A DNA stretch of 26,783 bases from NCBI RefSeq assembly GCF_003324165.1, contig NW_025407842.1:1-26783 (forward strand), in the 5' to 3' direction. The stretch is from Naegleria lovaniensis. Lineage: Eukaryota; Heterolobosea; Eutetramitea; Acrasida; Naegleriidae. Positions within the stretch are counted from its first letter, which is position 1; every line of letters starts with the position of its first letter. The position numbers and the translations under genes are program-made. The notes under the pieces were generated by a model, which saw nothing but the letters and a program-made list of their open reading frames with translations, did not search any database and was not told the origin of the DNA. This document shows positions 2,943 to 6,398 of this stretch, piece by piece.

Positions 2943-5291
2943 TCACTCCTTTCCTGGCCAAAACGTGCACTTGGATCTAAAATCTGGAAGGCAGCAATAA
3001 ATCTTGGCTCCATAATATGCATCAAACGTATTTCCAACGACTATACTACATGATTGAGGCAGTTCCAATTTATCTTTAAGAGCAACAGATAAAAGACTTG
3101 TATATTCTTCTTTCCAATTTCCTGTAACGATAATATTTTCCAACAATTGTTTTCTGGTGTGAATATCTTTTCCAGAAATGAAAGATGTAATCGATGATGG
3201 AATAAAGCTATGTTCTGACACGAAAAGTCTCTTGACAAGTCTCTCAAGTGTGATTTCATCCGTGACCATTTGTAAGAATTTTGTGTCAGCTCTATTCAGG
3301 AAATTATCAATGACAGCCGACACTGAAATACCACAATCATCCCATTCAATGACAATGCAAGTTGGTAATTGGTGTGCCATAGCCACAAGTAAATGACGTG
3401 GGGCCATACAAGCAGCAGGAATTCTCATTTCCATCTATGAATTAATTGTGAAAAGAATCTTTCCATACATTCAGGTCCACTTACCATCATGCTTAACACT
3501 TGGCGATAGGTTTCTTCATCTTTCATCCATTGTGGAGGAAGAGAACATAATAATGGATGTCGTTCATGACACAAGCTCAAGTCCTTGTATATCAAAGAGA
3601 CAAAAAATTGTAGTGCCTTAATGTCTTTAAGCGTTCCAGATGTGTGGAGACAAGGGCAAGGTCTTAAACTTTGCTTGCTTCCCAATACACATCGATGTAA
3701 CCCGAAAAAGCTATAGCTGTTCATGAGTGAAATAAAATTGCAATAAATGGAATCTTTCAAAGATAAATATTAGAAATACCTACTGTCCTCCAATACGGTA
3801 TGAAACCATGGACTCTACCGTTTTTTCATTTTCAGAGTTAAACAAGCCGTACATGGTCTTTTTTGTACGCATATCAATACAAACGGTCACAAATTCTTTT
3901 TCAAAATATCTTCGAGTGATTGTTGTAAAATACCAATCTTCTAGGTCATCTCTATGCTGTTGTTGCTTTAAATATCCAAATGTTTTGTCGTCACTCCAAT
4001 TTCTTCTATAAATTTTCTGCCATAATTGAGGACTTCTTCCAAGTGCATTGAAATATTTGTTCAGTGTTAAAATCTTTTTACACATATCCTTATCACTCAA
4101 GAAGGAGAAAACATGCAGCAGCATTTCTTCAGGCAGTTCTGTCAATTCATTTTCGATATAGTCCAACACGTTTGGTTTCTTGTACGAAGAAGACTTGTAA
4201 TGAAAATATGATTTGTTAAGCAAGTGGTCCATACTTCTACCGCTTTTCATGAGTAAATCCTGTGCAGATATATAGAGCTTTGTGGCTTCTCCAACTTGTC
4301 CTCTTTTTTCTAACGCATCGCTTTCATTTAACATGGCAGCAATTTTCTGATAGAGAGTACTTTTCTCAAAACCTTCATCTCTTGGAACAGTCTTTGAATC
4401 CACCCGTTTGAACATGATTTCTGTTCTCAAAATGAGCTTGGTTCCTTTTGTGACAACCATTCCTTCGTGAAACAAGTCATGATTAAATAAAGCACACATT
4501 CCCAAACTTGGTTTCAACGTGTACAATAGGTGAAAATGTTTTTGTGCTTCACTTGTTGATGGGCTTGTTGGTTGAGCACTTTCAATTTCTTGACAGGATG
4601 GAGGTATTCCCATTTTAGCTCGCTTCTTTTCCATTTCTCGATTTCTTCGACTTGTCGTTTTTACTTTGACGACAGTAAGGTCTTGCTGTTCCTTTTGTTG
4701 TGCAACACGAAGGTCATCATCATTGAATGGTTTCATGAATCGTGTTTCGCCTCCCTCAAAATCATCATTCAAATAGATCAATAAAGTATAAATACTTCTC
4801 TCATGATCATTTCGCACAAATTGCCCATCAATATGTGGTCTGAAATAATTGCCCTCCACGTATTTGCTAAACCTGAGGCATTCATTCACACCACATGCTA
4901 CCCATCTACCAGCAGAATCTAAACCAAAAGGATGAACATTTCGACTTAAATCTTCACAATTCAAATTCTCCTCAAATAGTTTCCATAATCGGTTGGCAAT
5001 GGCCTTGTCCTTGAAAATCACTCGCTCCGAATTTCGATATGATTGTGGATATTCTGCTGCAACAGATTCAAATTGTTGTTTCTTGGCACATTGATCCAAT
5101 AAATCAGAACATTCTTCGGAAGAAAGAAAATTTGGAATGACCAAGAGACGATCCGTGCATGGGATGGTGTTGTTTTGTGAGGATTCACTAACAGAATAAT
5201 CATCCAAATTCCAAGTAATTTTCTGTTGTGAAAGAATGGGAAGGCCTGGTTCAAGGATGGAAAAGGGAGGTGTGACTGTTGTTTGTGACAT
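2943..5291 (-). CDS. Fusion protein: 2OG-Fe(II) dioxygenase (P4H-like), F-box, actin-related domain
   Basis: Three exons, 5291-3784, 3716-3485 and 3434-2943, keep one frame and give 743 aa. The start is the first ATG (MSQTTV). Residues about 45-300 are a prolyl-4-hydroxylase-like 2OG-Fe(II) domain: iron ligands His153, Asp155 (HIDG) and His275 (LFHEG), and 2-oxoglutarate-binding Lys285 (GTKLILRTE). A charged insert of about 60 residues sits between its strands. A helical hairpin (about 310-360) precedes an F-box at about 383-426 (LTELPEEMLLHVFSFL). The remainder is actin-like: a phosphate-1-type strand VCIDMRTKKTMYGLF (Asp473), then TCIVIEWDDCGISVSAVID, then TRKQLLENIIVTG near the end. F-box plus actin-related domain recalls plant ARP8; the dioxygenase in front is what makes it unusual. 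It could be a substrate receptor of an SCF ubiquitin ligase that also hydroxylates. Two separate genes are possible but less likely. Confidence 0.78.
3717..3783 (-). other. Intron joining the F-box part to the actin-related part
   Basis: The upstream frame ends in TAG at 3782-3780, but the donor GTAGGT overlaps that stop (intron from 3783). The acceptor ATGAACAG ends at 3717 and restores the frame (CA + C gives His). A second in-frame acceptor, CTATAG, ends 6 nt later at 3711, so two protein forms differing by two residues are possible. The actin-type first strand lies before this intron and the rest of the actin fold after it. A further 50-nt intron (3435-3484, GTAAGT...CATAG, phase 0) splits the actin-related part. 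Confidence 0.75.
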
Positions 5292-5351: not shown

Positions 5352-6398
5352 TCAAGCGTCATTCCCAACTTTTTCATCTTTAAAAGCAAAAACAGCTTGC
5401 AGTGCCAAATGATCAGATCCATACTTGGAATTTGGAAGATGAGATGTGGTCATGATGTAAGGAACATCGTTAGGTTCACAGACTTCCATCACCTTTTCAA
5501 CATTAAGGAAATTTGAGCTGAAAAAAATATAATCCGTCACTAGGGCATTATTTTTGGTTTTCAATGTGAAAGATGGTTCTTCTCCATCAATTTCCATGTA
5601 TGCACTTTTAAGTTTGAAAGCATGTTTTGTATCAATGGCCGTCGCTTCAACACCATTTTCCTTGACATGAGCATGCAAGTAACCATCCACAACAAGATTA
5701 TACGTAGCTGAATGAGGCTCTGCATTAAAGTCTCCACATAATACGAGTGCATGTTCCTGACCTTTTTGATAACTTTTCAAATGCTTAAAAAGTGACCGTA
5801 ATTGATTAACTCTCACTTGAGGCTGTAACGGATCTCCCAACAAATGACATGATGCAACATAAATAAGTTTTCCATTTTCCTTTAGCTTTAACACAAGAAT
5901 AATTACTGAACTTCTTTCATGTACTTGAACGAGTTCAAATTTTTCTTCTCTATACAAACATCCCACGCCCACTGGGAAATCTCCAAGCTTTTGCTGCACC
6001 ATTCCGTTGTATCCCATTAATTTCAATGGATTTAAAATATCATTTTCAAATAGTGAAATTTCAACTTCCTGCAAACAAATCACATCAGGACGGTGCATTG
6101 AAAAGTCTCTCATAAATTTTTTAACCCTTCCACTCCATTCATAATTTTCTGAATGGGGTGCTTCTACAAAACCGTATCGATCTAAATCAGTCCAATAGGA
6201 AGCAAGTAAATTTTGAGAATAAATGCTGAACGACGGTGAAAGTAGCACATTTTGTAATTCATTTGAAGGATGATTCATCGTTGAATTATTTGCCACATCA
6301 TTGTTGATAAATCGTGAAATAATCTTCCCTTTCCGATCTTTGGTATGGACGGAATGAAATTTGTGTGATGGCATTTTTTTGGGTTGTTGTTTGACCAT
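5352..6398 (-). CDS. Endonuclease/exonuclease/phosphatase family enzyme, CCR4/nocturnin-like
   Basis: This is a single-exon protein of 348 aa. It has the full catalytic set of the metal-dependent EEP fold: Asn63 (SQNLL), the Mg-binding Glu111 (ICLQEVE), His185 (SCHLLGDP), Asp223 and Asn225 (CGDFNAEP), Asp289 (TDYIFF), and Asp329-His330 (GSDH) near the end. The spacing and the RPDVICLQEVE block resemble the CCR4/nocturnin/Angel/PDE12 branch, which removes poly(A) or 2'-5' linked nucleotides from RNA, more than the AP endonuclease or sphingomyelinase branches. The first about 55 residues are basic, Asn-rich and not part of the fold. There is no leucine-rich repeat region as in yeast CCR4. The gene ends 60 nt before the ATG of the dioxygenase fusion. 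The exact substrate cannot be read from sequence. Confidence 0.88.
   Translation of the reverse strand: MVKQQPKKMPSHKFHSVHTKDRKGKIISRFINNDVANNSTMNHPSNELQNVLLSPSFSIYSQNLLASYWTDLDRYGFVEAPHSENYEWSGRVKKFMRDFSMHRPDVICLQEVEISLFENDILNPLKLMGYNGMVQQKLGDFPVGVGCLYREEKFELVQVHERSSVIILVLKLKENGKLIYVASCHLLGDPLQPQVRVNQLRSLFKHLKSYQKGQEHALVLCGDFNAEPHSATYNLVVDGYLHAHVKENGVEATAIDTKHAFKLKSAYMEIDGEEPSFTLKTKNNALVTDYIFFSSNFLNVEKVMEVCEPNDVPYIMTTSHLPNSKYGSDHLALQAVFAFKDEKVGNDA

Follow-up and report, generated by a model that had tools for sequence, protein, structure and literature searches.

A single gene of Naegleria lovaniensis is predicted to encode one polypeptide in which a prolyl-4-hydroxylase-type 2-oxoglutarate (2OG)-Fe(II) oxygenase is followed by a helical hairpin, then an F-box and finally an actin-related (ARP) domain. 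Judged from sequence, the triple fusion is larger than a single-gene observation: it forms a family of at least eight genes in the same genome. In animals, Dictyostelium and Toxoplasma, prolyl hydroxylation is linked to ubiquitin ligases via separate proteins. Because the three-domain gene has seven relatives that are built alike, hydroxylation and tagging may here be coupled in one molecule, and an enzyme and an adaptor in one chain would make the coupling of hydroxylation to a ubiquitin ligase directly testable. The actin fold would in this case serve as an evolving arm, not as a filament.

The gene occupies positions 2943–5291 of the window (the whole stretch of DNA analysed, 26,783 nucleotides) on the minus strand. 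The single frame and exon structure proposed in the earlier note (5291–3784, 3716–3485 and 3434–2943) were obtained again, with the same product of 743 aa plus stop. Exon 1 (3784–5291, minus strand, ATG at 5291; 502 codons and 2 bases) encodes the oxygenase, the hairpin, the F-box and the first ARP strand. The 2OG-FeII_Oxy_3 match, placed by Pfam and by alignment, spans 4431–4874 (residues 140–287), and alignment assigns the Fe ligands to H153 (codon 4835–4833), D155 (4829–4827) and H275 (4469–4467) and 2OG binding to K285 (4439–4437). The oxygenase is linked to the F-box by two helices at 4212–4358 (residues 312–329 and 333–360), predicted with moderate-to-low confidence in a structure model, which may form a TPR-like hairpin. 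The F-box follows at 4002–4142 (residues 384–430, from Pfam). The first actin-fold strand pair, near VCIDMRTKKT, lies at 3843–3893 (residues 467–483) and hence in the F-box exon, where it had been placed before. Intron 1 (3717–3783; 67 bp, GTAGGT...ACAG, phase 2) is followed by exon 2 (3485–3716) with the first half of the ARP, and intron 2 (3435–3484; 50 bp, GTAAGT...ATAG, phase 0) by exon 3 (2943–3434) with the second half, ending in a TGA stop at 2945–2943; all of these features are on the minus strand. Two neighbouring genes are on the same strand: the one at 391–2199 of the window encodes a membrane protein containing a nucleotide cyclase domain (2.5e-21), and the one at 5352–6398, of the endonuclease/exonuclease/phosphatase family (2.3e-14), ends about 60 bp before the fusion gene starts.

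An HMM search of the 743-aa product matched all three of the domains claimed for it. The F-box-like family (6.2e-9; 35.9 bits against a Pfam cut-off of 24.3) and 2OG-FeII_Oxy_3 (PF13640; 5.1e-8; 34.2 bits against 27) scored above their cut-offs, whereas Actin (1e-5; 24.8 bits against 27) and the older F-box model PF00646 (16.6 against 20.5) scored below theirs. Exon 3 alone gave an Actin match of 4.3e-4, again below the Pfam cut-off, and its best PDB match was Arp4 (E 0.36); exon 2 alone matched no Pfam family. The best PDB matches of exon 1 were FBXO4 (0.003) and a bacterial prolyl 4-hydroxylase (P4H; 0.0098). The Pfam search of the window protein gave no TPR call above cut-off. JmjC was absent from the Pfam families matched by this protein and by the eight family models, the catalytic part being PF13640. 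NCBIfam returned no family for the window protein and nothing useful for the eight models (MamK in two of them, best 0.0053, and fliG in one). From the window sequence by itself the actin assignment would thus be arguable; the doubt is settled by the seven paralogues.

The window belongs to a genome of 30.69 Mb in 97 contigs, in which a SAH hydrolase differs from PDB 5v96, an N. fowleri structure, at 11 of 440 positions counted from the alignment. A search of this genome with exon 1 revealed seven further loci with actin matches or actin-like exons, on contigs C27, C45, C49, C13, C34, C7 and C2. A search of the genome with the Actin family (E ≤ 0.1) gave a direct match at six of these seven loci and missed the one on C45, as well as the window gene. 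The paralogues were modelled by splice-aware profile alignment (L051–L057), yielding proteins of 788–881 aa, every one terminated by a stop codon and ordered as oxygenase, hairpin, F-box and ARP; the C45 model begins at an uncertain position, and one intron of the C27 model is doubtful. At E ≤ 0.1, each of the eight models matches the 2OG, F-box-like and Actin families of Pfam; at E ≤ 1e-4, 2OG-FeII_Oxy_3 and Actin are matched by all eight (Actin best 2.1e-16) and F-box-like by six. The three-part fusion described in the earlier note thus recurs with the same domain order in seven paralogues, and the case that it had named as contrary, homologues in which the parts are always separate genes, was not found among the paralogues of this genome, all seven models being fused. 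The parallel that it drew with plant ARP8, which pairs an F-box with an actin fold, also stands: the F-box lies directly N-terminal of the ARP in 8/8 models. The window protein shares 28–34% identity with the paralogues. In a FastTree phylogeny of the eight it groups with L051 and L053 (support 0.978) and has the longest terminal branch (1.30 versus 0.33–0.67), making it the most diverged copy by sequence.

The HxD...H...K dioxygenase motif reported for the window protein is present (H153, D155, H275, K285) and has counterparts in all seven paralogues, the lysine being aligned at H+10 in seven copies and at H+9 in L052. Retention of the catalytic residues in all eight would fit a working hydroxylase. 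The window oxygenase carries an extra low-complexity insert that is absent from the paralogues, bringing the domain to 253 aa as against 196–203 aa. A structure model of exon 1 reached a mean pLDDT of 53, with 80–88 in places within the oxygenase core and less than 50 in the F-box region; because the model is poor overall, only the oxygenase core was used. With Foldseek, this model matched 2OG oxygenases best, among them prolyl 4-hydroxylases of viral, bacterial and algal origin (E 1e-7 to 1e-5). The named P4H matches (PBCV-1 vCPH, 5c5t; Bacillus, 3itq and 5hv0; Chlamydomonas, 3gze) share the fold and the HxD...H...K layout at 13–19% identity and, unlike the family, are stand-alone enzymes.

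Other genes of the genome also carry oxygenase or F-box domains in composite arrangements. A 664-aa ORF on C19 (L079:1599–3590, plus strand; about 421.6–423.6 kb) combines 2OG-FeII_Oxy_3 (PF13640, E 7e-17) with a Gnt1-type GlcNAc-transferase (PF11397, E 5.7e-57), which appears to be the layout of the dual SKP1 prolyl hydroxylase/glycosyltransferase PhyA/Gnt1. Two ORFs (L061:850–2706 and L062:675–2558, both plus strand) show a weak BTB_2/T1-like match after an oxygenase (E 0.0069 and 0.0038, both under the cut-off; the PDB match to KCTD1 reached only E 0.8) and may represent fusions of a 2OG oxygenase with a CUL3-type adaptor; L071:136–1137 (minus strand) is a partner ORF to these candidates. 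A 622-aa ORF on C34 (L078:945–2810, plus strand; about 85.4–87.3 kb) ends in a 2OG-FeII_Oxy_3 domain that is preceded by WD40-like repeats. F-box-like domains are abundant, with at least 147 matches at E ≤ 0.001 among the best 150 of 364 candidates scored. On C21 (L066:1000–3604, minus strand; about 240.5–243.1 kb), an actin-family gene is preceded on its own strand, at a distance of about 80 bp, by an F-box gene; considered as an F-box/ARP fusion, this pair at 242 kb was read as two genes, with a stop followed by a fresh ATG. It was the only candidate for an F-box/ARP gene lacking an oxygenase when the F-box and actin hit lists were compared by eye (150 of 346 and 150 of 364 F-box candidates being scored).

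The actin homology of the family extends, at the level of sequence profiles, across the fold. In the PDB, a profile of the eight proteins matched actins as well as Arp7 (best E 9e-18, covering residues 31–356 of actin), the best 60 of its 163 matches all being actins and Arps, and a profile of the last exon alone matched actin and Arp4 at 1.9e-9 and 6e-8. Alignment of the family with ten actins and ARPs of the same genome by hhalign gave 99.4% (E 3.5e-21) over family columns 5–373 of 383. A chance actin-like match was ruled out on the strength of these profile results (E 9e-18 and hhalign E 3.5e-21). The last exon of L057 gave a predicted model with pLDDT 79, and the 50 Foldseek matches listed for the C-terminal half of this protein (best E 3.8e-10) were all actin entries or actin-containing complexes. 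Across the family, the nucleotide-binding loops of actin have partly degenerated. In particular, the window copy does not keep the equivalents of actin G13, D154, G156 and G302, which we take to be nucleotide-binding loop positions; the glycines of loops 1 and 3 lost here are retained by the other seven copies, in all of which the alignment shows the GG of the third loop to be kept. Its ARP is also shorter (292 aa versus 348–397 aa in the paralogues), and exon 3 has 22 residues, at about the position of actin subdomain 4, where the paralogues have 71–90. Because the G13-type and G302-type glycines and much of the subdomain-4-like sequence are missing, the ARP of the window copy may bind nothing.

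On the analogy of plant ARP8/SUSA2, we see about an even chance that the family consists of SCF substrate receptors, with a degenerate ARP as a fast-evolving target arm and a hydroxylase acting in cis. SCF substrate receptors usually consist of an F-box and one additional fold, and the genome contains SKP1-like and cullin genes. The F-box would dock the protein on SKP1–CUL1, and target binding would fall, as proposed for SUSA2/ARP8, to the fast-evolving, non-filament ARP fold. The oxygenase would then act on the bound target, or on a residue next to it in the complex, which would make tagging dependent on O2, iron and 2-oxoglutarate. We infer all four elements of this scheme: SCF assembly, the ARP as receptor, hydroxylation in cis and O2 dependence. 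The ARP is cast as the target arm because of the analogy with ARP8/SUSA2, and its faster divergence fits this role. Mean pairwise identity among the eight proteins falls from 51% in the oxygenase to 45% in the F-box and 31% in the ARP, a gradient to be expected if enzyme and adaptor stay fixed and the target arm diverges, although the divergence of the ARP could instead reflect mere relaxed constraint. Weighing against this reading are the F-box-like match at E ≤ 1e-4 in only six of eight models, the Actin score below cut-off in the window protein, the pLDDT below 50 of the modelled F-box and the glycines and subdomain-4-like sequence missing from the window copy. We likewise infer, in line with the earlier note, that the protein may hydroxylate a partner and also recruit it to, or release it from, a ubiquitin ligase. 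In its fullest form, which we regard as rather doubtful, the protein would be a self-contained O2-gated ubiquitin ligase receptor, uniting in one polypeptide the hydroxylase, SCF adaptor and target arm that follow the logic of the HIF hydroxylase and VHL, and existing in at least eight copies with the actin fold as a diversifying recognition arm.

Alternatively, the F-box could be a control handle on an O2-dependent oxygenase that has its own targets, with SKP1/SCF binding setting the abundance of the enzyme, as has been proposed for Dictyostelium JcdI. On this precedent, the role of the F-box may be to regulate the enzyme and not to bring in substrates: the effect of JcdI overexpression on O2 sensitivity requires dioxygenase activity and not the F-box, which may mediate a reduced JcdI level (PMC9485057). 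By analogy, an overexpression phenotype that does not need the F-box would also count against substrate receptors in Naegleria, and the oxygenase is the best conserved part of the family. However, the family keeps a whole extra fold, the ARP, right after the F-box, like plant ARP8, whereas JcdI is said to have no obvious receptor domain (PMC9485057). We consider a control handle unlikely.

It is improbable, in our judgement, that the substrate is SKP1 itself, with the oxygenase hydroxylating the proline of the C-terminal TPEEE motif in cis upon F-box binding. The SKP1-like gene at 152 kb on C27 does retain DFTPEEEAK, and Pro143 of Skp1 presumably lies in the TPEEE motif. In Dictyostelium, Skp1 Pro143 is hydroxylated by PhyA (PMC9485057). 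However, the presence of a separate 2OG/GlcNAc-transferase gene makes SKP1 the less likely substrate: the C19 ORF with the PhyA/Gnt1 layout is the better candidate for this reaction, and a single site would not need eight diverging copies.

A similarly low probability attaches to the window copy being a relic, that is, a fast-diverging paralogue whose ARP no longer works, in a family that is otherwise functional. Its terminal branch is the longest of the eight, it has lost the loop glycines and much of the subdomain-4-like sequence that the other seven retain, and an insert lies within its oxygenase. Yet exon 1 is open for 501 codons, the splice sites are canonical and the catalytic residues are intact, and a one-function protein with oxygenase and F-box could persist.

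The intron positions bear on whether the window gene is one gene at all. The aligner was supplied with protein profiles only and with no intron positions. All eight genes have intron 2 at one and the same alignment column, in phase 0. For intron 1, three genes (the window gene, L051 and L053) agree in column and in phase (2); in L052 and L055 an intron lies a few columns off, and the remaining three genes have none there. In six of the eight (the window gene, L052, L053, L055, L056 and L057), a single uninterrupted exon encodes the HxD, distal histidine, lysine region, F-box and first ARP strand, the F-box of L057 being placed inside this exon from F-box search coordinates. In L056 and L057, the same exon also includes the whole first half of the ARP; L054 has an intron inside the HxD, and L051 an exon break after the F-box. 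An in-frame TAG at 3782–3780 and an ATG at 3724 do exist, so that one transcript might end at the TAG and a second gene start at the ATG, but two adjacent genes misread as one are extremely unlikely, and we rejected them because of the conserved intron columns and phases and the exon shared by catalytic residues, F-box and first ARP strand in 6/8.

Our searches of open-licence PMC literature listed no paper on the oxygenase/F-box/actin triple, and passages of two Naegleria genomics papers do not mention F-box/actin fusions. Relatives were also sought in viral and prokaryotic collections: among viral contigs, two loci carry phage-type P4H genes, with no F-box or ARP among the neighbouring ORFs listed, as judged from the ORFs, and the prokaryotic genome contigs gave no relatives. 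Each pair of parts is nevertheless known, F-box with actin in plants and F-box with a 2OG oxygenase of another class in JcdI and JcdH. KDM2A and KDM2B (FBXL11 and FBXL10) likewise have a 2OG oxygenase and an F-box in one chain; they are JmjC demethylases with CXXC, PHD and LRR, and lack an ARP. In plant ARP8/SUSA2 (At5g56180), a divergent actin domain comes immediately after the F-box in the same chain, an architecture shared with the family; the plant protein is single-copy and has no oxygenase, whereas the Naegleria family has the oxygenase and at least eight copies. According to PMC7562919, SUSA2/ARP8 binds ASK1 and can do without those nucleotide-binding residues of its actin domain that were tested, and the authors predict that the actin domain is the target-recognition part. 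The combination of F-box and actin is stated there to be confined to the plant lineage (PMC7562919), which, as a statement about architecture, is contradicted by an F-box/actin-fold protein outside plants. The nearest oxygenase/F-box precedent is JcdI: in JcdI/Fbxo13 and JcdH, from Dictyostelium and other protists, a non-heme 2OG dioxygenase and an F-box share one protein, like the family, and the features reported for them are Skp1 binding and O2 dependence (PMC9485057). In JcdI and JcdH, a JmjC (JmjD6-like) domain follows the F-box and there is no ARP, whereas in the Naegleria family a PF13640 oxygenase precedes the F-box and an ARP is present.
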